Source of the DNA: Deltaproteobacteria bacterium | GTDB taxonomy: Bacteria; Desulfobacterota; Binatia; Binatales; Binataceae | NCBI GenBank assembly: GCA_021801125.1 | Contig: JAJYYI010000143.1 | Coordinates: forward strand, 1-32,587 | Length of the DNA: 32,587 nucleotides | Direction of reading: 5' to 3' | Shown: positions 16,890-32,089 of the stretch, in pieces | Layout: each line of letters begins with the position of its first letter | How positions within the stretch are numbered: the stretch's first letter is position 1 | The notes under the pieces: model-generated | What the model saw: the letters and a program-made list of their open reading frames with translations, nothing else | What the model was told of the DNA's origin: nothing | The model's database searches: none | Program-made: the position numbers and the translations under genes

Positions 16890-17387
16890 ATGACGCGGGC
16901 CGGGTTCTACACCATCGAATCGGGACAGATTTCGTTTCGCCGCGACGGAAATTGGTACGTCGATGGGGAATTGATCGACAACCCGAGAATCTCGACGCTC
17001 TTCAGCCGCAATATTCATCAAGCTCCCGACGGCAGCTATTTTCTCCAGATAGGGGACGAGCGCGCCACCGTAACGGTGGAGGACACGCCGTACGTTGTGC
17101 GCACCGTCGAAGGCGATAGCCGCAGCGGCTTTACCCTCGTGCTGAACGACGGCGAGCGCGAGCCGCTCGATCCCGCTTCGCTCTGTGTCGGCGACAATGA
17201 CGTCCTTTACTGCTCGGTCAAGGCGCAGCGCACCCGCGCGCGCTTCTTGCGCCCCGCGTACTATCACCTCAGCACATGCTTCGAGGAAGACGCGAACGGA
17301 GATATCTACTTCGTCGTCAATTGGCGCCGCTATCCGCTGCTCCACTCAGGGAAGGCCTCGGGCGGGCAAACGACGACCGACAATTAG
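16890..17387 (+). CDS. Conserved protein of unknown function, DUF1285/DUF4505-like
   Basis: A soluble 165-residue protein. The sequence reads as I-F--DG-WY--G--I-NPRI--LFSR, then YFLQIGDERATVTVEDTPYVV, then AYYHLSTCFEEDANGDIYFV and a final NWRRYPLL. The first two blocks resemble DUF1285, and the last block resembles the end of DUF4505 (UPF0598) proteins; I cannot decide between these by eye. No signal peptide or membrane segment is seen. It lies 51 bases after dtd and 7 bases before trmL, so it is probably co-transcribed with two tRNA-acting enzymes. That association is the only clue to function. Confidence 0.75.
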   Translation: MTRAGFYTIESGQISFRRDGNWYVDGELIDNPRISTLFSRNIHQAPDGSYFLQIGDERATVTVEDTPYVVRTVEGDSRSGFTLVLNDGEREPLDPASLCVGDNDVLYCSVKAQRTRARFLRPAYYHLSTCFEEDANGDIYFVVNWRRYPLLHSGKASGGQTTTDN

Positions 17388-17394
17388 TCCGCTC

Positions 17395-17868
17395 GTGACC
17401 GACCCGCTGCTCAACGTCGTACTGGTACGACCACAGATTCCGCAGAACACGGGCTCGATCGCGCGGCTTACCGCGGCCACGCGCGTTCGCCTGCACCTAA
17501 TCCGCCCGTTGGGGTTTTCACTCGAAGATCGTTACCTGAAACGGGCCGGCCTGGACTACTGGCCGTCGGTTGACCTGCGCATTTACGATACTTGGGAAGA
17601 CTTCGCGGGACAATTCGACCACAGCAGGATGAAATTTTTCTCCGCTCGCAGTAAGAACAGCTACGTCACCGCGCGCTTTGAGGATGGCGATTTTCTGGTC
17701 TTCGGCAGCGAAACAACCGGCCTTGGAGCGCCATTTCTGGCGAACCGTACGGCTCAGACCTACGCCATCCCCATCTTCACGACCGAAGTGCGAAGCCTCA
17801 ACCTTTCCAACGCGGTGGCGATAGTGGTTTACGAGGCGCTGCGCCAACTTGGCCGGCTTGAATCATGA
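17395..17868 (+). CDS. trmL: tRNA (cytidine(34)-2'-O)-methyltransferase
   Basis: SPOUT-fold enzyme that 2'-O-methylates the wobble nucleotide of certain leucine tRNAs. Family blocks are all present: LNVVLVRPQIPQNTGSIARL at the N-terminus, LHLIRPLGFSLEDRYLKRAGLDYW, then the knotted cofactor site LVFGSETTGLG, IPIFTTEVRSLNLSNAVAIV and a final YEALRQLG. The length of 157 is normal. GTG at 17395 is chosen because it lies 7 bases after the previous stop and just before the conserved start; the frame is open further upstream but there it overlaps the DUF gene. No strong Shine-Dalgarno sequence is visible, so translation is probably coupled to the gene before. Confidence 0.93.
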   Translation: MTDPLLNVVLVRPQIPQNTGSIARLTAATRVRLHLIRPLGFSLEDRYLKRAGLDYWPSVDLRIYDTWEDFAGQFDHSRMKFFSARSKNSYVTARFEDGDFLVFGSETTGLGAPFLANRTAQTYAIPIFTTEVRSLNLSNAVAIVVYEALRQLGRLES

Positions 17869-17988
17869 CGGCACGGCCTCGCGCGCGGCACCGCACGCTC
17901 TCGCACCGCAAGCGTACGGCAGGCGCCACCCACTATCGGGCTGTCGCGCTTCACCGGCAAACCGCCCCGCGCTGGCGGCCCGCTCTCT

Positions 17989-19149
17989 CTACACCGCCTG
18001 TTTAGCCCGGCCTGCGGCGCCGGCGTGCTGGTGAGACCCGTGACTCTTTTCCTCACGCACGACGAAGCGGCGGTCCAGTTGACCCAGTTTCTCCACCACG
18101 CCGCCGTACTCCAGTTCCGAAATCGGCAGCATCGCCGGCCCCGAAAACCCTTGCATCCGGATCTCAGCGGCCTTTTGAGCAACGTTGTTACGCACCCAAT
18201 CCCAAAAGGGATGGTCGAAAACGTCCACCGGTTCGGTCAACTTCCCACCGTGCACGCAGAACGCGGCGCCGGTTACGATCGGTGGTCCGTCGAAGAAGGA
18301 GATCCCGCCGTTTTGCTTGACCGGCATCAAGGGACCGTTGTGGCTGCCGCGCATCGTGCCCGCCACGTAATGACCAATTCGGTATGGTGAAAGCACCTCG
18401 CCAGTGGCCGGGAACACGCCCTGAGTGCGCACCAGAGCAACCGGGTCGTCCTTGCCGGTGTAGGTGCCCGCGATGTTGTGCAAGCGGGAAGTAGAGACCA
18501 CCGCGCCCATCTCTCCAGTGCTCCGGCTGCGGATCGACTCCACGACAAAGCGCTCGTTATCACGCAGCAGACACGCGATATCATAAAGTTCTTCGGGCGC
18601 GTTGAGTTCGATCACCCGGTCCCCCTCGGTATGGTTCACGTCCATTATCGTGAACGTAAAACCCTTGGCCATCTTGGGCGAGAGCAGGAATCCGGCGCAG
18701 TGCATCGGGTCGGTAAACGCCAGGTAGAGCGGCAGGTTAAACGCTCCGGGGTTGGTCTTATCGGCGGTGAACAGGAGAAACGGCTCATTAGGGCGTTCCT
18801 CGAATTCCATCTCGCACGATCCCGGCCCCAGCCCTTTGACGTTGCCTGAAAACGAGTCTTTCAGCAGGTCCTGTCCGGCTCCATAAAGCCCCTGCTCCCT
18901 GGCCACGCGGGTGCCTTCCAGAAAAGCATCCCAGGCCAGTTGATGAATTTCCGGGTTATCCACACCTCGCTCATGCACCATCAGTATCGCGAGGTCGTCG
19001 CCCGCCATGTTGATATGGTGGCTAAGGAGCAGTTTCTTGGCCTTCTCCTTGACGAACTGCTCGACTGCCTCCCTGAGCCGCGCGCTCGGCCTGATATGGC
19101 CTCCTATCGCGCCCACGTCGGCTTTGATACAAGACAGTGTAATCTTCAC
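17989..19149 (-). CDS. fbp: Class V fructose-1,6-bisphosphate aldolase/phosphatase
   Basis: Bifunctional gluconeogenic enzyme: condenses triose phosphates to fructose 1,6-bisphosphate and then dephosphorylates it. The start MKITLSCIKADVGAIGGH carries metal ligands D11 and H18; further acidic ligands are in AGDDLA (51-52). The aldolase pair is in IAGTYTGKDDP, with Tyr230 and the Schiff-base Lys233. GPGSCEMEFEERPNEPFL, DPMHCAGFLLSP and YVAGTMRGSHNGPLMPV are family blocks. GTG 19149 has GGAGGGG 8 bases upstream and gives 386 residues. It stands alone, converging on trmL. The enzyme is typical of archaea and of deep-branching or autotrophic bacteria, often marking one-way gluconeogenic flux. Confidence 0.95.
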   Translation of the reverse strand: MKITLSCIKADVGAIGGHIRPSARLREAVEQFVKEKAKKLLLSHHINMAGDDLAILMVHERGVDNPEIHQLAWDAFLEGTRVAREQGLYGAGQDLLKDSFSGNVKGLGPGSCEMEFEERPNEPFLLFTADKTNPGAFNLPLYLAFTDPMHCAGFLLSPKMAKGFTFTIMDVNHTEGDRVIELNAPEELYDIACLLRDNERFVVESIRSRSTGEMGAVVSTSRLHNIAGTYTGKDDPVALVRTQGVFPATGEVLSPYRIGHYVAGTMRGSHNGPLMPVKQNGGISFFDGPPIVTGAAFCVHGGKLTEPVDVFDHPFWDWVRNNVAQKAAEIRMQGFSGPAMLPISELEYGGVVEKLGQLDRRFVVREEKSHGSHQHAGAAGRAKQAV

Positions 19150-19186
19150 AGCTTTTTCCCCTCCCGTGTGGTCTCCGGAAACCCAC

Positions 19187-19202
19187 ATGCCGCAGGCGGC
19201 AT
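19187..19202 (-). promoter_or_regulatory. Inverted repeat in the 5' leader of the FBP aldolase/phosphatase gene
   Basis: ATGCCGC and GCGGCAT are separated by two bases, a perfect 7-bp inverted repeat between the putative -10 element and the ribosome-binding site. It could be an operator or an RNA hairpin. Its short loop favours a DNA-binding site. Function is not shown. Confidence 0.35.
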
Positions 19203-19212
19203 ATCGTAGCGA

Positions 19213-19221
19213 AGTATATCA
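19213..19221 (-). promoter_or_regulatory. Putative extended -10 promoter of the FBP aldolase/phosphatase gene
   Basis: On the minus strand the bases read TGATATACT, an extended -10 element (TGN-TATACT). It lies about 64 bases before the GTG start. No good -35 box is at the usual distance, which is common with an extended -10. The 7-bp inverted repeat at 19187-19202 would fall in the 5' leader. Confidence 0.4.
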
Positions 19222-19570
19222 TGCTCCCGCACGTCGCCACCCCTGGTCCTTGAGGTCTCAGCCGGGCAGACGCCCATGACTCGGCCGAACAAAAAGCTTT
19301 GACACACCGCAGGACGCAACGCCATCGAATCGCGACAAACGATCAGCCGCGTTTACGCGTTAGCCAGCAGCGCCGCCAGACGCGCCGGCGAAACTACCTT
19401 ACAATCGATCCCGTCGCAGGAACAGACCCCCCCTTGCGAAGGCACCAAGCCGAGCCCATCGAGAATTCTACATTTATACCGATTTAGTCGTCTTGGCCTC
19501 AAGCGCGAATTTAGCTAGAAGCTAACCGTTCAAACTAAACTGTCGCCGACCTTTCAAGGAGGGCAAACAA
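19222..19570. other. Non-coding stretch upstream of the zinc-ribbon membrane protein
   Basis: No gene is visible in these roughly 350 bases between two divergent genes. A perfect 6-bp inverted repeat with a 3-base loop lies at 19511-19525, followed by an A/T-rich tract 19530-19541 that could include a -10 box for the rightward gene. AAGGAGG just before 19571 is the strong ribosome-binding site of that gene. Confidence 0.45.
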
Positions 19571-19993
19571 ATGGCCATAACCTGTCCCAAATGCTTCAGC
19601 TCCAACGCGGAAAACGCGAGCTTTTGCTCGGCGTGCCAGGCGCCCCTTAAGGGAGGCGGTGCGATTAAGCCGCTCGCGGCCTTCGCCTATCTCCTCGGCT
19701 TCGTGTCGGCAGCAATTTTGCTGAACCTCGAGCCGTATAATCAAGACCCGGCTGTAAAGTTTCATGCTCGCCAGTCAATCGTATTTTCCGTCGGCTGGCT
19801 CGCGCTGAATATCATCCTGCTGGTGTTTATCGGTTTCGCGCCCGCGTTCCTCGGCAACATCCTGGATTACGTGCGCGGCATCGCTAATCTCGCTCTGGCC
19901 GTAGTTTGGGTCTATCTGATGTACCAGGCCCTGACGGGGGTCCAATACCGCCTGCCGTTGATAGCGGACTGGACCGACTCCTTCGGCACCTGA
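19571..19993 (+). CDS. Zinc-ribbon membrane protein, DUF4870-like
   Basis: A 140-residue protein. The N-terminus is a zinc ribbon (CPKC at 5-8 and CSAC near 17-20), then three membrane helices: AAFAYLLGFVSAAILLNL, a segment after FHARQSIVFSVGWLALNIILL, and the last in IANLALAVVWVYLMYQAL. The HARQSIVFSVGW block is the DUF4870-type hallmark (HA-QSL-). The function of this family is unknown. ATG 19571 has a near-perfect AAGGAGG. It is monocistronic and followed by a hairpin at 20001-20030. Confidence 0.8.
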   Translation: MAITCPKCFSSNAENASFCSACQAPLKGGGAIKPLAAFAYLLGFVSAAILLNLEPYNQDPAVKFHARQSIVFSVGWLALNIILLVFIGFAPAFLGNILDYVRGIANLALAVVWVYLMYQALTGVQYRLPLIADWTDSFGT

Positions 19994-20000
19994 GCCTGCT

Positions 20001-20030
20001 GGCGTGCCGAATGGCCGGTAACGGCACGCC
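20001..20030. terminator. Hairpin between convergent genes, possible bidirectional terminator
   Basis: GGCGTGCCG (20001-20009) pairs perfectly with CGGCACGCC (20022-20030) around a 12-base loop. It starts 8 bases after the stop of the zinc-ribbon gene and lies 79 bases beyond the end of the convergent coiled-coil gene. There is no T run, so termination strength is uncertain. Confidence 0.5.
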
Positions 20031-20108
20031 ATCTATCGGCCAACCCCAACTTGCGGCTCCGTTCGGCTTTTGAATAGCTGACAATGGATAGGCGCGACCG
20101 CCTGACGG

Positions 20109-20408
20109 TCATTTGGGAGGATAGGGAAGCGGAAGATTCTTCGGCACTTTACCGGTCACCCGCACCTGTTCGAGTTCTTTGAGAAGCGTCTGATTCTCGC
20201 TCGAGAGGCGATTTTCTTCCTGCTCTACTTTGTTGAGCGCCGCCTTATTTGCTTCGTTCTCGCTTTGGAGTTGATTGATTCGCTTAGTCAGATCGTCAAT
20301 TTTGGCCTGTTGCTCGCTCTCGAAAGCGAGGCGACGTTGATACCAGTACGAAAAGGCGCCAGCGGCGATAGCTGCTAGTACAAGAAAAGCAATAACGCCT
20401 CTTAACAT
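20109..20408 (-). CDS. Small membrane-anchored coiled-coil protein
   Basis: A 99-residue protein of unknown function. One N-terminal membrane helix (about 4-22, MLRGVIAFLVLAAIAAGAF) is followed by a heptad-rich helix of about 50 residues (KIDDLTKRINQLQSENEANK and onward), then a short tail with prolines ending LPLPYPPK. The layout recalls FtsB/FtsL-type bitopic coiled-coil proteins, but there is no sequence motif to support that identity. ATG 20408 lies about 29 bases downstream of a possible promoter. It is a single gene converging on the zinc-ribbon gene. Confidence 0.7.
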   Translation of the reverse strand: MLRGVIAFLVLAAIAAGAFSYWYQRRLAFESEQQAKIDDLTKRINQLQSENEANKAALNKVEQEENRLSSENQTLLKELEQVRVTGKVPKNLPLPYPPK

Positions 20409-20436
20409 CCCACACCACTCGCTGCGTTAAGTTGCT

Positions 20437-20464
20437 AAAATAGCGCTTCTGTAACCCAACGCAA
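20437..20464 (-). promoter_or_regulatory. Putative promoter of the coiled-coil protein gene
   Basis: On the minus strand TTGCGT (20464-20459) and TATTTT (20442-20437) are separated by 16 bases, a plausible -35/-10 pair. Transcription would begin about 20-25 bases before the ATG at 20408. It is a pattern match only. Confidence 0.35.
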
Positions 20465-20857
20465 ACCTTAATGTAGCATCGGGTCGATGGAACATCGCGC
20501 GTGACCGCTGCGCGGCTGCCGCGCGCGGACCGTCCACACCTGGTCAAAACGCGCGTAGTCGTGACCGGTTGCCGCGCCGCCCCCGACCCAACGGACCGCA
20601 ACAGGCGTGAAGTCGAACCTGCCACCCATCCCCGAATTCACACACGACCTTCCCGGCCGCCACCGGCGAGCGTGCGCGAAGTCGCCCGCTGGACATGCTC
20701 TGACGCACTGATATGATACCGTTAACGCGACCGTGAAGGACCAGCTTGCGCGGCGATCGCCGTTTTGGGTCGTCGCTTAGCATCGCCAGGCCGCCTCGAC
20801 CTTGGGTCGTGCGTACGGCGCACTTGCTTACACCACCGCCGCCCGGGGCACGGCTAA
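20465..20857. other. Non-coding stretch upstream of the secreted protein gene
   Basis: A very GC-rich region of about 390 bases with no recognisable gene, RNA or repeat. Short open frames cross it on both strands, as expected for this base composition. The promoter of the secreted protein gene should lie near 20700-20850, but no clear boxes are seen. Confidence 0.45.
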
Positions 20858-21559
20858 ATGTGCAGCAAGATGCGCAAATCCAGGATCGCTACCCTGTTGC
20901 TTGAAGCGGGCAAAACGAGCCGGGTAGCATGGGCGTTTGCCTTCGCGCTGCTCGCTGGGTTAGTTTTGCCAAACGGCCCGGTCCTGGCGGACCCGGTAAT
21001 CAAGAGCCAACAAGAACCCGCCCAGACCCAGGAGATTCCCCAGCTCCGCCCGCAAGCGAACCATCACCCCTCTGGCTCGAAAATCCCGCGCTCGCAGGTG
21101 GTCGAGATTCCGCGACAGTTCCTCGGATGCTGGCATGGCGCGGTCGGTCAAGAGCAGTTGACCAACCTCGAACTCCTCTCACCGCCGCGGATTGACGTTT
21201 GGCTCACGAAAAACTATCGCGTATGCTTCATTCGTCAGGGCGACGAGCTCAGGGTGACCATCGCTGACAGCAACGTCGACCAGCACGACCAGGTGCTGCG
21301 CGCAACGTCAACTCTGGAGCCGGTCACCGCCAGCGGTAATCAGGTCGAGCTTGACGGCTACCTCACGCTTATCGAACGCTCTTCCAACCTGTTCGGCCTC
21401 GCCGAGCACCCACCCACGGTGGTTCTCGAACGCGTAAAGTTGCGCGGCGAGCTGCGCGAGGACAACGCGATGGCGGTACAGGGCCAAGTTACCGGCTATT
21501 ACAACGGCCGGCCGTGGTGGATCGGACAATGGCGCTGCAACTTCGAGCGCCAGCCCTGA
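20858..21559 (+). CDS. Predicted exported protein of unknown function
   Basis: A 233-residue protein with a signal peptide: basic start MRKSR, hydrophobic core WAFAFALLAGLVLP, probable cleavage after GPVLA and before DPVIKS. A Gln/Pro-rich linker of about 40 residues follows. The mature domain is predicted to be beta-rich: QFLGCWHGAVGQEQLTNLEL, YRVCFIRQGDELRVTI, and the end GYYNGRPWWIGQWRCNFERQ. It has three cysteines in the mature part. I do not recognise the family. ATG 20858 or ATG 20870 could be the start. It stands alone, 25 bases from the 3' end of the opposite-strand tRNA. Confidence 0.7.
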   Translation: MCSKMRKSRIATLLLEAGKTSRVAWAFAFALLAGLVLPNGPVLADPVIKSQQEPAQTQEIPQLRPQANHHPSGSKIPRSQVVEIPRQFLGCWHGAVGQEQLTNLELLSPPRIDVWLTKNYRVCFIRQGDELRVTIADSNVDQHDQVLRATSTLEPVTASGNQVELDGYLTLIERSSNLFGLAEHPPTVVLERVKLRGELREDNAMAVQGQVTGYYNGRPWWIGQWRCNFERQP

Positions 21560-21584
21560 CGGCGTGCCTTATAGTAAAACGGAG

Positions 21585-21658
21585 TGGCGGCGGTAGGACT
21601 CGAACCTACGACAGCGCGGATATGAGCCGCGTGCTCTAACCATCTGAGCTACGCCGCC
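21585..21658 (-). tRNA. tRNA with CAU anticodon, probably elongator Met
   Basis: A complete cloverleaf on the minus strand. Acceptor arm GGCGGCG (21658-21652) pairs with CGCCGCC (21592-21586), and the discriminator is A at 21585. The D arm is GCTC...GAGC. The anticodon stem CGCGG/CCGCG encloses the loop CTCATAT, with CAT at 21624-21622. The T arm GTAGG/CCTAC encloses TTCGAGT. CCA is not encoded. The D-arm block GTAGCTCAGATGGTTAGAGC fits elongator tRNA-Met. tRNA-Ile with lysidine-modified CAU cannot be excluded by eye. The acceptor arm begins with a G1-C72 pair, so it is not initiator tRNA-fMet. Confidence 0.93.
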
Positions 21659-21709
21659 TTCAGGCGGTTAAGCTTAGCCGCAACCGGCGTCGCGAGAAAG
21701 AGCCAAAGC

Positions 21710-22438
21710 CTAGGCACACACCAAGCGCTGCACCTTAACTTCACGGCTCCCGCGCGAAATCTGGTAAAGCAGCCCTTCCACTAGTTCGATACAACTGAGT
21801 TTGCCGCCGTATACCAGTCCAGTGTCCAGCCCGATTTTGTACGGCAGATCGAGCATCACGGCCTTCATCGGCGTGTGGCCGAAGACCACCGTGTACCCAA
21901 GTTGGTGGGGCTCAAGTATGAACTCCTGGCGGATCCAGAGCATATCCTCTTCGTCCTGCTCTTCCCAGACCACCGACGGGCGGATTCCGGCATGAACGAA
22001 AAGGTACGGCGGGCGAAGCTCGTACGGCCGTAACGTCCGCATAAATTCAATGTGGGCGGGAGGAATCAGCTCCGGCGCCTTGCGAGCATCGTCGGTGCCG
22101 TAGCTTTCCAGCGTGTCCAAGCCTCCGTTTAGCAAAAAACTGTCGCCGTAACGCCCAGGAAATCCAAGAAAGGACAGCATCATGTCCTCGTGATTTCCCT
22201 TGAGGAACACCTTCTCGCACGGAGTCTCCTTGAACTCGATCAAGGTCTGCAACACGTCGCGCGGGCTCGGGCCGCGGTCGACGTAATCGCCGATGAAAAC
22301 CACCGTGTCCCGCGCGGCAGGGTCGATCGCCTTCAGCATCGCCTCCAGTTCCACCGCGCAACCGTGTAAATCTCCAATTACGAAGACACGCCCGCAATTA
22401 GACACATGCGCTCTCGGTGCTCTACCCTTCTGCTTCAT
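21710..22438 (-). CDS. PPP-family metallophosphatase (Ser/Thr phosphatase / diadenosine tetraphosphatase type)
   Basis: Predicted two-metal phosphoesterase of the PPP superfamily. It has every signature motif: GDLHG (22-26), GDYVDRG (50-56), GNHED (81-85), FVHAGI and VVFGHTPM. This set occurs both in bacterial protein Ser/Thr phosphatases and in symmetrical Ap4A hydrolase/PrpE-type enzymes; substrate cannot be assigned. The 242 residues have no membrane segment. The ATG at 22438 lies within the end of meaB (17-base overlap), so translation is very likely coupled to that of the GTPase chaperone. Confidence 0.9.
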   Translation of the reverse strand: MKQKGRAPRAHVSNCGRVFVIGDLHGCAVELEAMLKAIDPAARDTVVFIGDYVDRGPSPRDVLQTLIEFKETPCEKVFLKGNHEDMMLSFLGFPGRYGDSFLLNGGLDTLESYGTDDARKAPELIPPAHIEFMRTLRPYELRPPYLFVHAGIRPSVVWEEQDEEDMLWIRQEFILEPHQLGYTVVFGHTPMKAVMLDLPYKIGLDTGLVYGGKLSCIELVEGLLYQISRGSREVKVQRLVCA

Positions 22439-23438
22439 CGGGGGTCTCTTTGTCGCGCTCCTCGGCCCACAGCACCTCCGCCATCGTCGCCGGACTGCCG
22501 GTTATCGTCCGCGCCGCATGATACGGGTTAAGCTCGCCTCGGCTCACCTGGGAAACCAACGACGCCACCGCGCCGCGCGCCAAGCCGCGCAAGACCTGAG
22601 CTTCCATTTCGGTGGTCAGAATCTCCCGAAACTCGCGCAAACGGCGCTCGCCCTCGATTACCGGGTCGCGATGGCTCAGGAGATAGGCGCGATGACTCGC
22701 GATAGCCTGGACCAGAGCGTCGATCCCCTGTCCTTCGGCCGCTTGAGTCAGCAGCACCGGCGTCCGCCATCCGCCGTCGCTTTTCAGTCTTACGCTCAGG
22801 TCAAGCTCGGTTCGCAAGCGCTCGGCGCCGGATCGATCCGCTTTGTTGACGACGAAGATGTCCGCTATCTCGTTAAGACCCGCCTTCATCACCTGCACCG
22901 AATCGCCGCCCTCGGGCACGGTCACGACGACCGTAGTATGGGCCAGGTCCATCACCGCCAGCTCGGTTTGACCAACACCCGCGGTCTCAATCAAAATGGG
23001 ATCGTAGCCGAAAGCGTCGAGCACGCGCGTGGCCTCGCGCGCGGCCCGCGACAACCCGCCGTGACTACCGCGGGTAGAGAGGCTTCGTATAAACACGCCG
23101 GCGTCGCGAAAATGGTCCGCCATGCGAATCCGGTCTCCCAACACCGCGCCACCGGAAAAGGGGCTGGACGGATCGATTGCCAGCACCCCGACCTCGCGGT
23201 CGAGCGCGCGGTACGCGGCGACGAGGCGGCTAATCAAGGTTGATTTCCCCGCCCCTGGAGCTCCAGTGAAGCCGACCACATGCGCCCGGCCAGTCTTGCG
23301 ATACAACTGGTCCATCAATGCCGCAACCCCGGCCGAGCGATTCTCGACCAGGGTTATTACGCGCGCTAGCGCGCCCTTGTCGCGCGCTTCGAAGCGCTCT
23401 AACAGTTGCTTAAGCTTAGCGCTGAGTTTCTGCGGCAA
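22422..23438 (-). CDS. meaB: Methylmalonyl-CoA mutase-associated GTPase MeaB (ArgK family)
   Basis: P-loop GTPase that guards adenosylcobalamin loading and repair of methylmalonyl-CoA mutase. After a helical N-terminus (ALARVITLVENRSAG) comes Walker A GAPGAGKS (59-66). IDPSSPFSGGAVLGDRIRM, the switch/Walker B region ETAGVGQTEL and the guanine-specificity motif NKAD follow. A C-terminal dimerisation arm ends it. Length of 338 is typical. Start is TTG at 23438, the best-supported start near the conserved N-terminus. No mutase subunit (mutA/mutB or small B12 domain) is in the window, so the client lies elsewhere. It overlaps the phosphatase gene downstream. Confidence 0.93.
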   Translation of the reverse strand: MPQKLSAKLKQLLERFEARDKGALARVITLVENRSAGVAALMDQLYRKTGRAHVVGFTGAPGAGKSTLISRLVAAYRALDREVGVLAIDPSSPFSGGAVLGDRIRMADHFRDAGVFIRSLSTRGSHGGLSRAAREATRVLDAFGYDPILIETAGVGQTELAVMDLAHTTVVVTVPEGGDSVQVMKAGLNEIADIFVVNKADRSGAERLRTELDLSVRLKSDGGWRTPVLLTQAAEGQGIDALVQAIASHRAYLLSHRDPVIEGERRLREFREILTTEMEAQVLRGLARGAVASLVSQVSRGELNPYHAARTITGSPATMAEVLWAEERDKETPDEAEG

Positions 23439-23674
23439 CTGGCCTGCCCTCAGAGGCGTGGAGCGCCGCTCGCTGCGGCGCCAAGCACGGCTTTATGGGT
23501 GATCATAGCTGGGCGGTCCTTTCGCAGCAATCCAGACTCCCGCGATGGAGGCCCGACAGCCGCTCGGAGGTCGCAGCCGAGCAACCGCGCGGGTTCTAGG
23601 GAACATTTAGTTTAGATGGATGCCGCGTACCACTTTAATTGTCTTTGCTTCAATGTCAGTTTATTTTTAATGCC

Positions 23675-24106
23675 GTGAAGTTGCCGGAACTTTATAGCGA
23701 TTGGCGCCTGGTGACCGGACTGGTTTTAATCATCATGGGCGCGGTCAACTGGGGCGTCGGTTTTATCGGCACCGAGCAGTATCGACAGCCACCCAGCGTC
23801 GCATCCGAGACCCAGTCCGAGGACATCTCCAGTGTTTTCGACGGACTCGACGACAGCTCGAACCGCGCGGTCCTAACGCCGCTCGTCGACCGCCAGCGCA
23901 AGGTTTCCATCAACTCCGCTCAGATGGATTTCTTTCATGCGGTTTTCCTAGTCGGGCAAGCTCTATTCGTCGCCGGATTGGTCATCACGCTGGCCACCTT
24001 GCTCGCCACGTTCCATCGCGACGCAAAAAACGCGATGAGCCGCGCCTTTCGTGCTAATCTCTCGAACGGATTAGGCTTGCAGCGGCGCGAAGACGCGCAG
24101 CGGTAG
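23675..24106 (+). CDS. Predicted small membrane protein of unknown function
   Basis: A protein of about 143 residues with two membrane segments: LVTGLVLIIMGAVNWGVGFI near the N-terminus and FFHAVFLVGQALFVAGLVIT with its continuation near residue 105. They are separated by a polar loop of about 60 residues rich in Ser and Asp. The C-terminus is basic and cytosolic. I do not recognise the family. GTG 23675 is my preferred start because it places the first helix near the N-terminus; an in-frame TTG at 23639 is possible. No clear ribosome-binding site is seen for either. It lies 114 bases before ispE, possibly in the same transcript. Confidence 0.6.
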   Translation: MKLPELYSDWRLVTGLVLIIMGAVNWGVGFIGTEQYRQPPSVASETQSEDISSVFDGLDDSSNRAVLTPLVDRQRKVSINSAQMDFFHAVFLVGQALFVAGLVITLATLLATFHRDAKNAMSRAFRANLSNGLGLQRREDAQR

Positions 24107-24220
24107 ACCGGCTGTTGAGCAAAGCTTTGGAGCGGCGCGAAACCGGAAAGCCGCTGCTATGATGGCGCGCGCGCCGAGCCGGCGTGCCGGTCGAAAAGCG
24201 GCCGCCTTAAGCGAACACTG

Positions 24221-25087
24221 ATGAGAAAGACGATCGGCGGTCTCGCGCCCGCCAAGATAAATCTTTTTTTACGGGTAACCGGCCGGCGACCAAACGGCTA
24301 CCATGATCTCGACTCGCTATTTTTGCCGCTTGCGCTTTACGACCGCGTCACGATCGCCCTTACCTGCGGCACCCGTCGCTCGGTTGCGCTGCGCTCCAAC
24401 CGCCCCGAGTTGCCCACCGACGAGCGCAATCTCGCCGTGGCCGCAGCCCGCCGGATGCTTGCGCGCTACGACATTCAGGCCGAGGTCAACATCGATCTGG
24501 ACAAACAAATCCCGCTCGGCAGCGGGCTCGGCGGCGGCTCGAGCGACGCCGGCGCGGTCATCCGGCTCCTCGCCGAGGTCTTGGGAATAGCGGACCCGGA
24601 CGGGCTCGCCGCGGTCGCGCTTTCCGTGGGGGCCGACGTCCCCTTTTTCCTGGACCCCCGACCGGCCAGAGTCGGAGGCGTCGGTGAAAAAATCATGCCC
24701 CTGGCGGCGCCGACTCTGTCGCTCGTACTGGCCACGCCGCCAATCGAGGTTTCGACCGCGAGCGTGTACGCCCAACTTAAGCCGGCGCGATGGAGCGGAG
24801 CGGCCAGCGCCGAGGAAATCGAGCAGTTCTGCGCGGGCGACGTGCGCCCCGCGATGCTCGTCAACGACCTTGCGCAACCGGCGTGCGAGCTTTACCCCGC
24901 GATTAAGCGGCTATGGCGCCTGGTGGAAACCACCGCTGCGCAGGCCTGCGGCATGTCCGGGAGCGGAGGCACCATTTTCGCGATTTACCCCCACGCGCAA
25001 GCGGCAAGGCAAGCCCGCGAGCAGATAGCGCGGCTCGACTCCACGGCGACCACCCTTGCCGTGCAAACCATCCCCGCCCTACCCTAA
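24221..25087 (+). CDS. ispE: 4-diphosphocytidyl-2-C-methyl-D-erythritol kinase
   Basis: ATP-dependent GHMP kinase of the methylerythritol phosphate pathway of isoprenoid synthesis. The N-terminal motif LAPAKINLFLRVTGRRPNGYH contains the conserved Lys12. The glycine-rich ATP loop is PLGSGLGGGSSDAGAV (98-113), and GADVPFF carries the catalytic aspartate. The C-terminal motif is MSGSGGTIFAIY. Length of 288 is standard. ATG 24221 directly precedes the conserved block. It converges on the DUF1122 gene with a 4-base overlap of coding ends (25084-25087). ipk-adjacent genes such as prs, often found with ispE, are absent here. Confidence 0.96.
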   Translation: MRKTIGGLAPAKINLFLRVTGRRPNGYHDLDSLFLPLALYDRVTIALTCGTRRSVALRSNRPELPTDERNLAVAAARRMLARYDIQAEVNIDLDKQIPLGSGLGGGSSDAGAVIRLLAEVLGIADPDGLAAVALSVGADVPFFLDPRPARVGGVGEKIMPLAAPTLSLVLATPPIEVSTASVYAQLKPARWSGAASAEEIEQFCAGDVRPAMLVNDLAQPACELYPAIKRLWRLVETTAAQACGMSGSGGTIFAIYPHAQAARQAREQIARLDSTATTLAVQTIPALP

Positions 25088-25911
25088 GCGAGCGCCTCGG
25101 CAAGCAGCGCGGCGGCGCGCCGCTTAGCCCGCGCGACTAGCGCCGCTTGGGATTCTCCGGCAGGCAGGTCCGTCTTCAGAAAATCCTGAAGCTCGCGGCG
25201 ATGCTGCTCAGCAGAGCAGCGCGCGGCGGCTTCGTCGGGCGGCTTGTTGGCCTGAAGCTTGCGCGGCCCTTCGTGCCCGCCTTCCGAAAAATACCAGTCC
25301 TTGAATTGCCCGCTAAAGCCGGCCGCGAACAGGAGCGCGCCAAGATGGGTCGCTATCGGCAGGACGCCCAAGACCAACTCAGCGAAGGTTTCCTCCTGGC
25401 CGCCGCTTTCGTAATCGACCATCAGGTGGCCGCCGGGCGGGATCATCTCGGCAAGCCGTTCGATCACGCCCTTTTCCATGCCTAGAGCGCGAGCGTCAAG
25501 TCTGCGGCCGTCTGAGAACTCAACTTTGGGATAAATGCGGCATTCGATCCACGGACGCACGCCTTTTCCGCCCAGACTCATGATGCCGCTGATCAGAGGA
25601 GTCGTGGAGATTTCGTTTGGGCCTCCGATCAGCTTCGCGGCGAAATGGGCCCAGCCACTGCGGGTTTTATTTTTTTGGGTGTTGAGCCGAAGCCTATAGC
25701 CCGCGCATTCCCATCCTTCGAGCCACGCTGAAAGCGCCTGCGCCGCGCGGTTCGTCCCATCCATCCCGCGTGGCGAGGACCCTTCCGGAGCTAGCGGCGC
25801 GCGACGCTCGCCCGGCCTTTCGCCGGCGGCCAGGACGCCGCCAATGCCAGGTCCGGCGCTCGCGCTCGGCCCCTTTTCCGGCCCTTCGGTACGCCGCCTA
25901 TGCTCGCTCAT
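25084..25911 (-). CDS. DUF1122 family protein
   Basis: A 275-residue protein of unknown function. The conserved core has RSGWAHFAAKLIGGPNEIS, GGKGVRPWIECRIYPKV, EMIPPGGHLMVDYE, PIATHLGALLFAAGF and FKDWYFSEGGHEGPRKLQ, the pattern I associate with DUF1122. A low-complexity Arg/Pro/Ala-rich region of about 50 residues precedes it, and the C-terminus is a long Ala-rich helix. ATG 25911 overlaps the purU stop (ATGA), so the frame that continues upstream inside purU is not coding. Translational coupling to purU suggests a link to formate or one-carbon metabolism. This is a context inference only. Confidence 0.8.
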   Translation of the reverse strand: MSEHRRRTEGPEKGPSASAGPGIGGVLAAGERPGERRAPLAPEGSSPRGMDGTNRAAQALSAWLEGWECAGYRLRLNTQKNKTRSGWAHFAAKLIGGPNEISTTPLISGIMSLGGKGVRPWIECRIYPKVEFSDGRRLDARALGMEKGVIERLAEMIPPGGHLMVDYESGGQEETFAELVLGVLPIATHLGALLFAAGFSGQFKDWYFSEGGHEGPRKLQANKPPDEAAARCSAEQHRRELQDFLKTDLPAGESQAALVARAKRRAAALLAEALA

Positions 25912-26771
25912 TGGAAGACGATCGTTTTGTTCCCGTGGACGAGGACGCGCTTTAGCAGGTGGGCGCTGACGGCATGGGCCAAGACCGTCACCTCGACGTC
26001 CTTGCCCTTGCGCGCGAGGTCTTTGACCGTGTCGCGATGAGACACCGCGGTCGTGCCCTGCGTGATTATCGGTCCGGCGTCCAACTCCTCGGTTACGTAA
26101 TGCGCGGTGGCACCGACCAGTTTGACGCCCCGCTCGTAGGCTTGCCGGTAGGGCTGCGCGCCCACGAAGGCGGGCAAGAAGCTGTGATGAATATTGATTA
26201 TCGGCTTGCCCCACGCGCGCAGGAAGTCGCCCGAAAGCACCTGCATGTAACGCGCGAGAACCAGCAGGCTGCATCGCCACTCCGCAAGTTTTTCAAGCAG
26301 CCGAGCCTCCGCTTCGCCCTTACGTCCTTTTTCGACCGGAATCGTCACGAACGGTACTTGAAAAGGGCGAACCAGCGGCTCGAGGTCCGGATGGTTCCCG
26401 ATCACGCCGACCACCTCGCCGTTCAGCTCGCCCAAATGATGGCGGGTCAGCAAATCGCTCATGCAATGGGGAAGCTTCGACACCATGATGACGATTCGCT
26501 CCCGCTGCGTGCTGTCAAAAAGCTCCCATCGCAGCGACAGCGAGGAGAGCGCCTTGGGCAATTCGACCGCCAGCAGCGAGCGCATCTCCGCTATCGAGCG
26601 CGACATGCTCGCGAAGTGTATCCGCCAAAAAAAATGGCCGTCGTCGCGATCCGTATGCTGATCCGAGTCAACAATATTGCAGCCGTTAACGAAGAGCAGG
26701 TTGGAAACGCTTGCGATGATCCCCGGCCGATCCAGGCAAGAGATCAAAAGCGTGCCCGTCTGAACTTCCAT
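25908..26771 (-). CDS. purU: Formyltetrahydrofolate deformylase
   Basis: Hydrolyses 10-formyl-tetrahydrofolate to formate and tetrahydrofolate, balancing one-carbon pools. The N-terminal ACT domain reads TGTLLISCLDRPGIIASVSN. The formyltransferase domain follows, with GNHPDLEPLV, LARYMQVLSGDFL, IINIHHSFLPAF (catalytic His) and TEELDAGPIITQ (catalytic Asp). I chose ATG 26771 because GGGAGG lies 10 bases upstream; an in-frame ATG at 26789 is within reach but has no such site. This gives 287 residues, normal for PurU. It overlaps the downstream DUF1122 gene by 4 bases. The divergent rsmI starts 148 bases away. Confidence 0.95.
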   Translation of the reverse strand: MEVQTGTLLISCLDRPGIIASVSNLLFVNGCNIVDSDQHTDRDDGHFFWRIHFASMSRSIAEMRSLLAVELPKALSSLSLRWELFDSTQRERIVIMVSKLPHCMSDLLTRHHLGELNGEVVGVIGNHPDLEPLVRPFQVPFVTIPVEKGRKGEAEARLLEKLAEWRCSLLVLARYMQVLSGDFLRAWGKPIINIHHSFLPAFVGAQPYRQAYERGVKLVGATAHYVTEELDAGPIITQGTTAVSHRDTVKDLARKGKDVEVTVLAHAVSAHLLKRVLVHGNKTIVFQ

Positions 26772-26919
26772 CCGCAACACGCCTCCCATTGGGAAAGTCG
26801 TTCTTTACCGATCTAACCAAATCAGTCTGGCCTTGCACAGGGCGTCGCCCGTCTCGCGCTTTAGCGCGCTAGAATATTCGCGCGGCCGAACCTCCGATAG
26901 GCCGTTTTGGAGAATCGCG

Positions 26920-27858
26920 ATGAAAGACGAAGCTGGCCCGCGCCGCGGCATTTTATTCGTCGTGGCCACGCCGATCGGCAACCTCGAGGATATCACTCTG
27001 CGCGCGCTTAAGATTCTGGCCGAGGTGGACGTGATCGCATGCGAAGACACGCGGCGCACGGCGCTGCTGCTCAAGGCTTACCAGATCGCCAAGCCACTGG
27101 TGAGCTATTTCGAGCACAACGAAGAGCGGCGTACCCGAGAGTTACTGGAACAGCTTGGCGCGGGCAAGAAAATCGCGCTGGTCACCGACGCCGGCACGCC
27201 AGGAATCTCCGACCCCGGTTACCACCTGGTGCGCGGCGCGCATGAAGCCGGTTTTCGCGCGGTTCCTGTGCCGGGGGCGTGCGCGGTCGCGACGGCGCTT
27301 TCCGTGGCCGGCCTTGGGGCTTCGAGCTTTTGTTTTGCCGGGTTTTTACCGGCTCGCCCCGCCGAGCGGCGCCGGACGCTGATCGAGCTTAAGCACGAGT
27401 CGCGCACGATCGTCTTCTTTGAGGCCGCGCGCCGCCTTGCGGAGAGTTTAAGCGCGATGGCGGCTGAGTTTGGCGCTGATCGCCGCGCGATAGTGGCGCG
27501 CGAGCTGACCAAGGCTTACGAGGAGATCGACGTCGGCGCGCTTGGCGAGCTTGCGGCGCGGACCCCGTCGCGCGAACTGCGCGGCGAAGTCACGCTGGTC
27601 GTCGCCGGGGAACCTAGAAGTGCGTCTTCATCGGTCGGCGGTCGGTCTGACGCGGTGATGGTGAAAAGCGGCGCACACCCGTCGGTCAAAGAACCTCTGA
27701 CGATCGAGATGCTGCGCGAGGCGGGCTTAAGCCTCAAGCAGGCCGCCAGCGTGATGGCGCGGGTCTACGGCCTGAGCCGTCGCGACGCCTATCAACTCGG
27801 GACGCGCCGCAGTCCCGCGTCCTCCGTCCCTGCCAAGCCCACCGACGCCGAGCCCTAG
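26920..27858 (+). CDS. rsmI: 16S rRNA (cytidine(1402)-2'-O)-methyltransferase
   Basis: Tetrapyrrole-methylase-fold enzyme that 2'-O-methylates C1402 in the decoding centre of 16S rRNA. The hallmarks are LFVVATPIGNLEDITLRAL, DVIACEDTRRTALLL, LVTDAGTPGISDPGY, VPGACAVATALSVAGL and FFEAARRL, ending with RELTKAYEE and LRGEVTLVV. ATG 26920 has GGAG about 7 bases upstream and is preferred over a frame open from 26833. A C-terminal extension of about 80 residues beyond LRGEVTLVVAG is Ser/Arg-rich and includes SLKQAASVMARVYGLSRRDAY. The TAG stop at 27856-27858 lies inside a decayed CRISPR repeat. Confidence 0.95.
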   Translation: MKDEAGPRRGILFVVATPIGNLEDITLRALKILAEVDVIACEDTRRTALLLKAYQIAKPLVSYFEHNEERRTRELLEQLGAGKKIALVTDAGTPGISDPGYHLVRGAHEAGFRAVPVPGACAVATALSVAGLGASSFCFAGFLPARPAERRRTLIELKHESRTIVFFEAARRLAESLSAMAAEFGADRRAIVARELTKAYEEIDVGALGELAARTPSRELRGEVTLVVAGEPRSASSSVGGRSDAVMVKSGAHPSVKEPLTIEMLREAGLSLKQAASVMARVYGLSRRDAYQLGTRRSPASSVPAKPTDAEP

Positions 27859-27881
27859 CCGATCCGCAGATCGGCTGCAAC
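27857..27881. repeat. Decayed leader-distal CRISPR repeat overlapping the rsmI stop
   Basis: The 25 bases match positions 13-37 of the array repeat exactly, including the whole palindromic hairpin. The first 12 repeat positions (27845-27856) no longer match and encode the last residues of RsmI. A 34-base segment (27882-27915), the size of a spacer, separates it from the first intact repeat. Degenerate repeats are typical of the oldest, leader-distal end. Confidence 0.85.
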
Positions 27882-27915
27882 CGGCGGCACGCGCGTTGGG
27901 TCATCAGCTCAGCGT

Positions 27916-29024
27916 GTTTCAATCCTCAGCCGATCCGCAGATCGGCTGCAACGACATAGGATTAGATAGATCAATGCCCTCCATGGGCGTTTCAATCCTC
28001 AGCCGATCCGCAGATCGGCTGCAACCATAACTGGTTATGTATATCGTTTTCGCGTGATAGTTTCAATCCTCAGCCGATCCGCAGATCGGCTGCAACCAAT
28101 TGTATTCGACCCATTTTTAGATAGTAGGTGGTTTCAATCCTCAGCCGATCCGCAGATCGGCTGCAACGGGACACCGAACGCGGCACAGACTGCGGCAGTA
28201 AGTTTCAATCCTCAGCCGATCCGCAGATCGGCTGCAACGATGATATTGCCGAATTCCTACGACCTCGTAAAGTTTCAATCCTCAGCCGATCCGCAGATCG
28301 GCTGCAACGTTTGTTGCGGCGGGTTGACATGTATCCAGAATAGTTTCAATCCTCAGCCGATCCGCAGATCGGCTGCAACGTTAGAAGTTACGAATAATGG
28401 TTACTACTACAATGTTTCAATCCTCAGCCGATCCGCAGATCGGCTGCAACGACTGGTGTTTGAGGTATCACGTTTTCCCTGCGCGTTTCAATCCTCAGCC
28501 GATCCGCAGATCGGCTGCAACAAGGTAGAGATGGGGCGTGGGTACGTTTTACGTGTTTCAATCCTCAGCCGATCCGCAGATCGGCTGCAACTCAGAATCC
28601 ACTATGAACTGTTACATAATCGAACAAGTTTCAATCCTCAGCCGATCCGCAGATCGGCTGCAACACGTGCGGCGAGTCCATACATTCCTGGAACGTATGT
28701 TTCAATCCTCAGCCGATCCGCAGATCGGCTGCAACTACCTAGGACATTATTTCTTGTTAATCCTAGCAGTGTTTCAATCCTCAGCCGATCCGCAGATCGG
28801 CTGCAACTCGAAAACAGGGTGTTGCTGTAACGTATGTACCGGTGTTTCAATCCTCAGCCGATCCGCAGATCGGCTGCAACGTATGTCAAGACTGGTACAA
28901 TCCTAGCCGCTAGCGGTTTCAATCCTCAGCCGATCCGCAGATCGGCTGCAACCGGGGATATTGCCTTCATACGTCGGTATAAGAAAAGTTTCAATCCTCA
29001 GCCGATCCGCAGATCGGCTGCAAC
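27916..29024 (-). CRISPR. Type I-C CRISPR array, 16 intact repeats and 15 spacers
   Basis: Sixteen identical 37-bp repeats (plus-strand form begins GTTTCAATCCTC and ends GGCTGCAAC) begin at 27916, 27989, 28060, 28131, 28202, 28272, 28343, 28414, 28485, 28555, 28628, 28699, 28771, 28844, 28916 and 28988. Spacers are 33-36 bases. On the minus strand the repeat reads GTTG, then a 9-bp stem (CAGCCGATC/GATCGGCTG) with loop TGCG, then AGGATTGAAAC. This 11-base end is the expected crRNA 5' handle left by Cas5d cleavage. Transcription is therefore leftward, the same direction as the cas genes, and the newest spacers lie at the 29024 end. The repeat sequence is constant throughout; only the unit at 27857 is decayed. 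Confidence 0.98.
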
Positions 29025-29173
29025 GGCCTATATGGTACTACCCTTGGGTCCATTCCACCAGATATTGATCGCGGCTCCCTCCGAAAACGCAGAGGCCGCT
29101 CTTTTCGGCGCGTTGAAGAACGTCTCACCTGCGCGAACTTCGCGGTATTTTGGCGATCGCCGAGGGTCCGCGC
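29025..29173 (-). promoter_or_regulatory. CRISPR leader
   Basis: The 149 bases between the cas2 stop and the first repeat on the transcribed strand are the expected leader, given the array orientation. They should hold the pre-crRNA promoter and the integration-guiding sequence adjoining the repeat at 29024. No clear -10/-35 pair was recognised. It is not markedly AT-rich, unlike many leaders. Confidence 0.65.
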
Positions 29174-29464
29174 TTACACAAGTAGAGGGTCGTGGATGTC
29201 AAAGGCGGGTTGCTTCCCGATTAGCGAGAGGTGGCGCTCGCGCGGCTCCATCAGCCGGTAGATTCTCACGCTGTCCTTGGATTTTTCCATCTCCCGCGCC
29301 AGGCGATGCTTGAGCAACTCCAGGGCCGCTTCATTGAGGACGCACTCGAACACCGACTTTTGCACGCGCTGGCCGTAGGCCATGCAGACCTGGGCCACGC
29401 GCCGAAGCCGCCGTCTGCCGGCTGCATCGTCAGTCGCAACGTCATAAGCCACAAGAACTTCCAT
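29174..29464 (-). CDS. cas2: CRISPR-associated protein Cas2
   Basis: Small ferredoxin-fold protein that, with Cas1, integrates new spacers. MEVLVAYDVATDDAAGRRRL is the conserved N-terminal strand with its aspartate (YDV). QRVQKSVFECVL and the later SVRIYRL are the other family blocks. Length of 96 is typical of the I-C type. It starts 15 bases after the cas1 stop and is last in the cas operon. The leader and array lie immediately downstream. Confidence 0.96.
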   Translation of the reverse strand: MEVLVAYDVATDDAAGRRRLRRVAQVCMAYGQRVQKSVFECVLNEAALELLKHRLAREMEKSKDSVRIYRLMEPRERHLSLIGKQPAFDIHDPLLV

Positions 29465-29479: not shown

Positions 29480-30511
29480 TTAGCGGTAAAAGAAGGGCGG
29501 GTAATCCGCGAGGTCGCCCCGTAGATGTCGAGCCAGCAAACGCGCCTGCACATGGGGTACGAGCCCCAGCGGCAATTTTTGCTTGAGGAGGCGGTGCTGA
29601 AGTTCTTCGGCTTTGCGCTCCTGGAACGCCTTTAACACCTCGCGTCTGCCGCTCTCGGTAAGGCGGACGGCCCCGCCGGGTAAAAATTCGAAACTCTGCG
29701 CGGAAAGTTGCTTCCGGTTGATCAAGGTTATTGCCAGGCGATCGGCCAGGATGGGGCGAAATTCCTCCATCAGGTCGAGCGCCAAGGCGGGGCGACCGGG
29801 CCGGAGCGCGTGCAGATAGCCGACCTGCGGATCCAAGCCCACACCCTCGACGGCCGCAGCACATTCTGCGCCGACTAATGCATAAAGAAAGGAAAGCACG
29901 GCGTTGACGCGGTCTCGCGGCGGGCGGCGAGTCCGGCCGTCGAAGGAGAAATTCTCCCGGTCGCCGCGCACCATCCATCCGAACACGCCGAAGTATGTGC
30001 GTGCCGCGTCGCCCTCCGCTCCGCGCACTTGGTCGAGGTCGTTCAGCTCTCTGAGGCCCTCCAGAATCACGCCGAGCCGGTGGGCTGCGTCGGACAATGA
30101 GCTTCGCGCCGACTCTTCGTCCGTCTCCCTAGCGGCGCGCAGTAGCACTTGCCGGCTGTTCTGAATCTTGGCGGCGACGATTTGCCGCGAGATCGCGAAC
30201 GTGCGCTGCTGATCCGAAAGCGCCAAGTGTTGCGCGCGTCGCAAAAGCACGTTGCCCTGCAGGCGACCTTCGACGCGCGCCTTAAAGCGCCCGTTGCGGT
30301 CGAGCCAAACGAGGTTTCTGCCGTCCTCCGCGCATCGTTCGATCAGAAAGGGACTGAGCGTGACCTGCCCGAATATCACTATTCCGCTCAGGCGTGAGAG
30401 CGGCACGCGCATGCGCGTTTCACGCTCGACCTCGACGCGAACCGTGTCGTGGTCAAGGTGAAGCATCGCGCCCTGAGTGAGAACGTATAGAACGTTTAGG
30501 AGTTCAGTCAT
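29480..30511 (-). CDS. cas1: CRISPR-associated endonuclease Cas1
   Basis: Metal-dependent integrase that inserts spacers at the leader end. MTELLNVLYVLTQGAMLHLD opens the N-terminal beta domain. The catalytic residues are visible: Glu166 in GAEGDAARTYFG, His234 in GYLHALRPGRPAL and the acidic cluster DLMEEFRP at 246-253. All are intact, so the protein should be active. I chose ATG 30511, which overlaps the cas4 stop by 8 bases; an open frame continuing upstream to 30583 lies inside cas4 and lacks Cas1 similarity. The 343-residue length fits type I-C Cas1. Confidence 0.97.
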   Translation of the reverse strand: MTELLNVLYVLTQGAMLHLDHDTVRVEVERETRMRVPLSRLSGIVIFGQVTLSPFLIERCAEDGRNLVWLDRNGRFKARVEGRLQGNVLLRRAQHLALSDQQRTFAISRQIVAAKIQNSRQVLLRAARETDEESARSSLSDAAHRLGVILEGLRELNDLDQVRGAEGDAARTYFGVFGWMVRGDRENFSFDGRTRRPPRDRVNAVLSFLYALVGAECAAAVEGVGLDPQVGYLHALRPGRPALALDLMEEFRPILADRLAITLINRKQLSAQSFEFLPGGAVRLTESGRREVLKAFQERKAEELQHRLLKQKLPLGLVPHVQARLLARHLRGDLADYPPFFYR

Positions 30512-31163
30512 CGCCCTCGCCAGGGCCGGGCCAGGGATGAAAGAGCGCTCCCTTAAGGCCGCGCAGACGCGCAGGCTCGCCAATCACCTGCGGCATGCAA
30601 ACATTTATCAGGGAGCAATTGGGGCAGCGGGCGTCATTGGGCGCCGGCGGAAGCCTGGTTTGCTCGATCATGGCGCGTATATTCTCGACGGCATCCTCGG
30701 TGCGCCGTCGCAGCTCGGCATCGAAGCGCACCTCGTATCTCCGCCTCGCGGCGTGATAAAACACCGCGCCACGGTGTACTTCCACACCCATCATTTCTTC
30801 CAGGCAAAGCGCCTGCGCGCACAGCTGTAGGTCGGCGTGACGCCCGCGCCGCCTGCCGACCTTGTATTCAACCGGGTAAGGACCACTGGGCCTCAACTCG
30901 ACCGCGTCCGCCACGCCGCGGAGCCCAAGTCGTTCGGACCAAAGCGGGGCGCTCCGCACAACCCTGACCCCGGACGACAGGGTATCCTCGCCCGCCTCGA
31001 TCCGCTCGTGAGCCAGGCGACCCCGAATCGTGAACACGTTTTCCTCAAACACCTGCTCGATGTGGATCAACGCGCACTGGCGCGGGCAATAACTGAAGTG
31101 CTCGATCGCGGAGATCGGCACCTCGAGCAGCTCTCCGCTTGACCGCACGTTCCGTCTCGGCAA
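30504..31163 (-). CDS. cas4: CRISPR-associated exonuclease Cas4
   Basis: RecB-like nuclease with an iron-sulfur cluster; trims prespacers and selects those with a PAM. PISAIEHFSYCPRQCALIH holds the first cluster cysteine (Cys26). Cys180, Cys183 and Cys189 in RCPNCSLINVC supply the others. Nuclease residues are GVAD (Asp86), E99-Y-K101 and the QL-Q motif DLQLCAQAL. The start is not certain: TTG 31163, 11 bases after the csd2 stop, or an internal GTG (31148 or 31121). It is separate here, not fused to Cas1. Its end overlaps cas1 by 8 bases. Confidence 0.95.
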   Translation of the reverse strand: MPRRNVRSSGELLEVPISAIEHFSYCPRQCALIHIEQVFEENVFTIRGRLAHERIEAGEDTLSSGVRVVRSAPLWSERLGLRGVADAVELRPSGPYPVEYKVGRRRGRHADLQLCAQALCLEEMMGVEVHRGAVFYHAARRRYEVRFDAELRRRTEDAVENIRAMIEQTRLPPAPNDARCPNCSLINVCMPQVIGEPARLRGLKGALFHPWPGPGEGDD

Positions 31164-31174: not shown

Positions 31175-32089
31175 CTAGCCAACCAGCCTAGTCAGATGGA
31201 TGCCGCCGGGTAAATTGTCCGCATCCACGGCTATTTGGTAATCGGCAAACGCGCGCGGCGGTCCGGCGTCAGGCTTGAGCCTTACTGAAATACGCTCGAA
31301 CAATCGCTGGGCAGGCGCGTTGCCGAGCGGACTTTCATGGCTGAAAACGTAGAGCCCCTGCACCGCCATCATGCCGCGCGCCGAGGAGCGATCCAGATCG
31401 AACATGTTCTGGAGCGCGGTCCAGAACAATCCCAGGTCGTCGCGGTCGGCGCCGGTCTGCTTGGCAAAGTGAGGGTTGAAGAAGCCATGCGCGCGGTAAA
31501 GCCCGTAAGGCACCAACGCCTTGCGTCCCATTTCGGTACGCTTACCGCCTTCACCCTCGCCGCTCTCTTCGGAAACCGCGACTTCCGTATCCTCCGCTCG
31601 GGTCACTGCCACACGAGTGATGGAAAGATCCAGGGGCACTACGCGATCGATAGAGCGAGCGAACGTCAATTGAATTGGTCCGCGCACCTGGCCGCAGTTC
31701 ACGCCCGTGGTCATGACGGCGCCGAACATCCGGATGTCGTAAAAGTTTCGGCACATCCATGCTCGCGCCTTCTCCACTTCCGAGGCTTTTTGCTTCGCGC
31801 CGGTCGATTTGAGCCCGTTGGCTTCGTAAGCGCGCTCATGTTGCGTATTAAGGGCGACTCCGCTCCGGACGTAAATCTTGAATCGCTCCTCGCTGCCCCG
31901 CAGCGTATCGATATAATCGCGCACCTTGCGCTTGAGCGCCACGTCGGTGACCAATCCCTGCATCGTTTCGGGATCCACGCGCGGCAAGTTGCCTGCGTCG
32001 GGGTCGCCGTTAGGATTGCCGTCGGCAACGTCAAACAGGAAAACGAAATCGTGCCGCTGCGTTTGGTTGGTATGAACGGTATCAACCAT
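31175..32089 (-). CDS. csd2: Type I-C Cascade backbone protein Cas7 (Csd2)
   Basis: RNA-binding RAMP protein that forms the helical backbone of the I-C Cascade along the crRNA. The start HDFVFLFDVADGNPNGDPDAGN is the Csd2/Cas7 signature. VDPETMQGLVTDVALKRKVRDYI, then MCRNFYDIRMFGAVMTTG, GQVRGPIQLTFARSIDRV and YGLYRAHGFFNP follow in order. Length of 304 is standard. ATG 32089 follows a GAGG site. It assigns the system to subtype I-C together with the repeat structure. An acidic Glu/Ser/Gly loop (AEDTEVAVSEESGEGEGGKR) near residue 165-185 looks like a surface insertion. Confidence 0.97.
   Translation of the reverse strand: MVDTVHTNQTQRHDFVFLFDVADGNPNGDPDAGNLPRVDPETMQGLVTDVALKRKVRDYIDTLRGSEERFKIYVRSGVALNTQHERAYEANGLKSTGAKQKASEVEKARAWMCRNFYDIRMFGAVMTTGVNCGQVRGPIQLTFARSIDRVVPLDLSITRVAVTRAEDTEVAVSEESGEGEGGKRTEMGRKALVPYGLYRAHGFFNPHFAKQTGADRDDLGLFWTALQNMFDLDRSSARGMMAVQGLYVFSHESPLGNAPAQRLFERISVRLKPDAGPPRAFADYQIAVDADNLPGGIHLTRLVG

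Follow-up and report, generated by a model that had tools for sequence, protein, structure and literature searches.

The CRISPR array of the window (the whole stretch of DNA analysed, 32,587 nucleotides) is, with a probability of roughly 90%, an ordinary type I-C array whose leader-distal end lies beside rsmI. Its oldest repeat is truncated and meets the rsmI stop codon. The case is a further instance of the known 3'-truncated terminal repeat, here next to a convergent housekeeping gene that keeps its native end.

The array and its terminal repeat

The genome to which the window belongs (G000) measures 3.5 Mb in 150 contigs, of which the window is C60. Its features are listed in Table 1, together with those on a second contig of the same genome, C11.

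Table 1. Features of the type I-C locus and of rsmI; positions are those of the window unless a contig or locus is named
Feature	Position	Strand	Evidence or remark
rsmI, 16S rRNA (cytidine(1402)-2'-O)-methyltransferase, 312 aa from ATG at 26920	26920..27858	+	TIGR00096, 243 bits (cut-off 167.9); PF00590; orthologue in G001
Terminal (leader-distal) CRISPR repeat, truncated	27857..27881	-	5' 25 nt (transcript sense) kept with 8-bp hairpin
Oldest spacer, 34 nt	27882..27915	-	no second copy in 29 genomes including G000, at most 3 mismatches
16 perfect 37-nt repeats and 15 further spacers (33-36 nt)	27916..29024	-	
Putative leader region, between cas2 and first repeat	29025..29173	-	placed by position and strand
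cas2	29174..29464	-	TIGR01573, 67.7 bits (cut-off 24.5)
cas1, type I-C	29480..30583	-	TIGR03640, 504.8 bits (cut-off 385)
cas4	30504..31163	-	TIGR00372, 136.1 bits (cut-off 65)
cas7/csd2, type I-C	31175..32089	-	TIGR02589, 340 bits (cut-off 182.25)
cas8c/csd1, 3' part, cut by contig end	32174..32587	-	TIGR01863 profile positions 463-584
cas8c/csd1, 5' part	contig C11 (L088), behind pxpA, cas3, cas5		TIGR01863 profile positions 7-381
cas3	L088:8819-10981		HD part TIGR01596, 80.3 bits (above cut-off 43.45)

The array (27857-29024) consists of 16 perfect 37-nt repeats, 16 spacers and one truncated terminal repeat. Since cas8c, cas7, cas4, cas1 and cas2 all lie on the minus strand and the repeat ends in ATTGAAAC, the array is read on the minus strand, as GTTGCAGCCGATCTGCGGATCGGCTGAGGATTGAAAC, with its oldest end at 27857. 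The genes cas1, cas7 and cas8c matched type I-C families, Cas1c above its curated cut-off, and the proteins by which a type I-C system is recognised (Cas3, Cas5d, Csd2 and Csd1) were all found. The cas5 gene matched Cas5c/Cas5d (TIGR01876, 147.1 bits, cut-off 85), the helicase core of cas3 scored 95.4 bits against TIGR01587, under the cut-off of 102.45, and both cas8c fragments, each taken alone, scored below the whole-protein cut-off of TIGR01863. The cas1 ORF is listed from a TTG; its true start is probably near 30511, because the profile match begins at residue 28. As to cas6, there was no room for a further gene between the named cas genes in the two contigs as assembled, with the gap inside cas8c. 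No Rfam family reached its gathering score in 26700-29300, the array DNA had no match in a phage collection at E 0.01, and the exact repeat was found in none of the viral contigs.

The 25 bases at 27857-27881 are identical to the last 25 bases, on the plus strand, of the 37-nt repeat GTTTCAATCCTCAGCCGATCCGCAGATCGGCTGCAAC. They lie 71 nt before the next copy, in register, with the 34-nt spacer between them; this match together with the register is far beyond chance. The rsmI stop codon TAG occupies 27856-27858, its last two bases being the first two of the retained repeat. Thus, the truncation of the oldest repeat and its meeting with the rsmI stop, as seen in a first-pass annotation, are real and correctly placed. 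The same annotation had the 3' 25 bases surviving, which is true on the plus strand only: read in transcript sense, the repeat retains its 5' 25 nt and lacks its 3' 12 nt, namely the 11-nt handle and G26, the last base of the stem. Compared with the consensus in transcript sense, the first 25 nt are identical and 8 of the last 12 are changed. All other copies (16/16) are identical, so that the leader-distal repeat alone deviates from the consensus, and it does so at the 3' end in transcript sense, as in degenerate terminal repeats. The bases at 27845-27856 match the missing part of the repeat at 4 of 12 positions, so no recognisable remnant of it is left there.

The full repeat is predicted to fold into a 9-bp hairpin with base 26 of 37 as the last paired base, leaving 11 nt over; 11 nt also follow the hairpin in 9 of the 10 other type I-C consensus repeats that were folded. 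Cas5d is described in a review as making the 11-nt 5' handle in type I-C (PMC5965380). The handle of the oldest spacer's crRNA comes from the intact repeat at 27916-27952. The last repeat has no spacer after it, so its handle would be part of no crRNA, and loss of this handle should be harmless for that reason. The retained half of the hairpin borders the oldest spacer and could still give the 3' end of that crRNA, in which case processing of the last crRNA would continue.

Transcription across the junction

It had been suggested in the first-pass annotation that the pre-crRNA would run antisense into rsmI. The direction is as claimed, the array being on the minus and rsmI on the plus strand. 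A scan of 27600-29200 gave two terminator-like sites, both at 29129-29145 on the plus strand and none on the minus strand. As neither strand has such a site at the junction, the pre-crRNA could run into rsmI as antisense. On the sequence evidence, we consider it unlikely that the pre-crRNA reads through the array end and lowers rsmI expression as antisense RNA: array ends with a housekeeping gene nearby in convergent orientation occur elsewhere too, e.g. in L231 (see below), and transcription of an array can fall off before its far end.

On the plus strand, the predicted hairpin starts at the first base of the rsmI stop codon and has a folding energy of -13.7 kcal/mol, which would suit the proposal that the retained palindrome serves rsmI as a transcription terminator or 3'-end stabiliser. 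An intrinsic terminator combines a G+C-rich hairpin with a T-run. No T-run follows this hairpin, which is therefore not a canonical terminator; as an intrinsic terminator for rsmI the candidate was ruled out. The scan, which placed its only sites at 29129-29145, likewise speaks against a terminator at the junction. In addition, the palindrome was not found in the genome of a relative of the same genus (G001) with up to 1 mismatch, and thus comes from the array. A role as terminator or stabiliser is, altogether, distinctly unlikely. Both ideas can be combined: the antisense precursor RNA would couple CRISPR transcription to the 16S rRNA methyltransferase, and the hairpin, common to both 3' ends, would tune the overlap. 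Such coupling seems quite improbable.

The RsmI C-terminus and the insertion site

The stop codon overlaps the edge of the repeat, and intergenic DNA of the G001 type is not recognisable here. Both observations could be taken to mean that a deletion joined rsmI with the array, or that the array end was overwritten, giving RsmI a new C-terminus. However, G001 lacks the 37-nt repeat even when 3 mismatches are allowed (it carries another cas1, below the I-C cut-off, and is not CRISPR-free), and its RsmI ends at the same aligned place. Counted from the MKDEAG start, RsmI has 312 aa in both genomes; the ORF listed for G001 has 314 aa and starts two codons earlier. In both, 18 residues follow YQLG, and the aligned ends are CCC-TAG here and CCC-TAA in G001, so that only the third base of the stop need derive from the junction. 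The protein has a complete methylase domain, and its C-terminal HTH match ends before the tail begins, covering residues 268-294 here (RsmI_C in Pfam, 26.6 bits, just under the cut-off of 27) and 269-296 in G001. The tails themselves are not closely alike in sequence, and their DNA alignment is only modestly better than that of codon-shuffled tails, 38 of 2000 of which scored as well.

A new C-terminus is thus very improbable, and the related idea that the missing 12 bases of the repeat became rsmI sequence fails on the same comparison. As evidence against a new C-terminus, the first-pass annotation would have accepted relatives without CRISPR that have the identical C-terminus and downstream palindrome; the C-terminus of G001 does match in place and length, the palindrome is absent. 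On this comparison of sequences, RsmI appears to retain its native C-terminus and stop codon, and the protein looks unchanged. A deletion or insertion junction would have fallen at the rsmI stop.

In G001, rsmI has pxpA as its direct neighbour, in convergent orientation and at a distance of 120 bp. Among 29 rsmI loci (L003-L031, flanks of at most 1,500 bases) this neighbourhood was found in one, that of G001. In the window genome pxpA, 83% identical to that of G001, lies on contig C11 and is followed by cas3, cas5 and the 5' part of cas8c. The two cas8c pieces are complementary, with profile positions 382-462 missing between them; the ends of C11 and C60 show no exact overlap. Most simply, a single I-C locus would lie between pxpA and rsmI, with the assembly broken inside cas8c into two contigs, and the complementary cas8c fragments suggest how C11 and C60 would be joined. 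Between pxpA and cas3 lie 587 bp (L088:8232-8818, on C11) that include a run of 10 N; compared with the 120-bp pxpA-rsmI gap of G001, they showed no similarity beyond the pxpA end (blastn, E 1e-3). The sister genome without the locus shows the gene order, and the array boundary can thereby be set against an unoccupied site.

DNA similarity to G001 was found in 9 pieces, in order, from 9284 to 27808 of the window, inside rsmI. In window positions 1-9283, similarity to the G001 contig is lacking: it stops at 9284 although the fetched G001 stretch (L033) continues for about 7 kb, and gene order therefore differs there. An artificial junction, created in the assembly of a metagenome bin, is hardly credible, even though the window is one of 150 contigs and 13 of 58 surveyed arrays ran to within 90 nt of a sequence end, given this ordered similarity and the position of the other I-C flank beside pxpA, the neighbour of rsmI in G001, by which two separate contigs indicate one insertion site.

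A cas1 above the I-C cut-off was found in G000 and in 0 of 34 other family members searched, one of which is just 53% complete; this favours gain of the locus in the lineage of the window genome. With a single same-genus genome for comparison, a loss in G001 would fit too. A counterpoint to gain is G034, of the same family, in which an array of three repeats differs from the present repeat by 1-2 mismatches (L043:1689-1869, contig C103 of G034). In G034 no match to the I-C cas1 family was found at E 1e-60.

Elsewhere in the window genome, a lone perfect 37-nt repeat is present on contig C95 (1896-1932; L042:1896-1932), with its crRNA sense towards clpB, from whose ATG its end is separated by 28 nt. 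The flanks are shared by G001, which lacks the repeat; between the aligned flanks there are 255 bp in G001 and 599 bp in G000. The lone repeat could be what is left of an array after collapse, or else a solitary repeat unit. Collapse of an array to one repeat is discussed in PMC8047081, and solitary repeat units have been reported in viral genomes (PMC10651486). Should the clpB leader transcript include the C95 repeat, it might be cut there by Cas5d. The array leader shared only matches of 9-12 bases with the DNA before this repeat or before the G034 array.

Array ends in type I-C loci

The ends of type I-C arrays were surveyed in the same phylum. Among 395 genomes, 85 were above the Cas1c cut-off, and 71 of the 84 other than G000 were taken. 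The 13 left out were 11 with less than 1,000 nt of contig beyond cas1, plus G198 (about 1,850 nt) and G316. An array was seen in 58 of the 72 sequences (window included); most of the 14 without one are short contig ends, but L213 and L239 exceed 15 kb. The far end was visible in 45 of the 58 arrays, the other 13, close to a sequence end, being dropped. Handles were scored without gaps; L219 (indel) was counted as mutated, and L180 and L204 as intact despite complex array ends.

The last handle was replaced (at least 5 of 11 bases) in 9 of the 45 arrays, window included, changed at 1-4 bases in 7 and intact in 29. Terminal truncation is therefore not the rule in this sample (29/45 intact), unlike the report for E. 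coli and Salmonella (see below). In the 9 arrays with a replaced handle, the hairpin was still predicted in 4 (the window, L171, L177 and L231), partly in L175, and lost in 4 (L200, L203, L212 and L230); selection to keep the hairpin is therefore unsupported. Plain truncation of the opposite kind, with the handle kept and the 5' part lost, was found in none of the 43 arrays in which the sequence continues for 150 nt or more after the last copy. Beyond the last copy of these 43, a 3' fragment of the repeat was present in 2 (L180 and L204) and a 5' fragment in 8 (L204 included). Both 3' fragments are explained, as in L180 the array changes to another repeat variant and in L204 there is a second array. 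The survey suggests that the first change in the last repeat is in the crRNA handle that no spacer uses.

A close parallel was seen in L231 (about 2990-5485; genome G080), an I-C array with the handle lost from its terminal repeat. A convergent ORF, in which three NADH dehydrogenase domains were recognised, has its stop 25 nt beyond the hairpin. Distances to convergent ORFs were taken mechanically in the survey, and four of those genes were checked by Pfam.

In gene content and order the locus is like type I-C CRISPR-Cas (cas3-cas5-cas8c-cas7-cas4-cas1-cas2), as it is in its Cas1c, Csd2, Csd1 and Cas5d families, the repeat end ATTGAAAC and the 11 nt after the hairpin. The repeat has 37 nt, whereas the most frequent length in the I-C survey was 32 nt; other 37-nt repeats occur there, e.g. 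in L214, L217 and L228. For E. coli and Salmonella, the 3' end of terminal repeats is described as 'almost always degenerated' (PMC2886076), many terminal-repeat polymorphisms are described as 'substitutions or truncations in the 3' end' (PMC8047081), and the CRISPRDetect paper reports in general terms that mutations and partial deletions affect repeats towards the end far from the leader (PMC4869251). As in the degenerate terminal repeats of these three reports, the last repeat has lost its 3' end here, with the 16 other repeats identical. It differs from them in that the break, which spares all but one base of the stem, coincides with the stop codon of the adjacent gene. Arrays are known to end in this manner, and the present one is an ordinary case.
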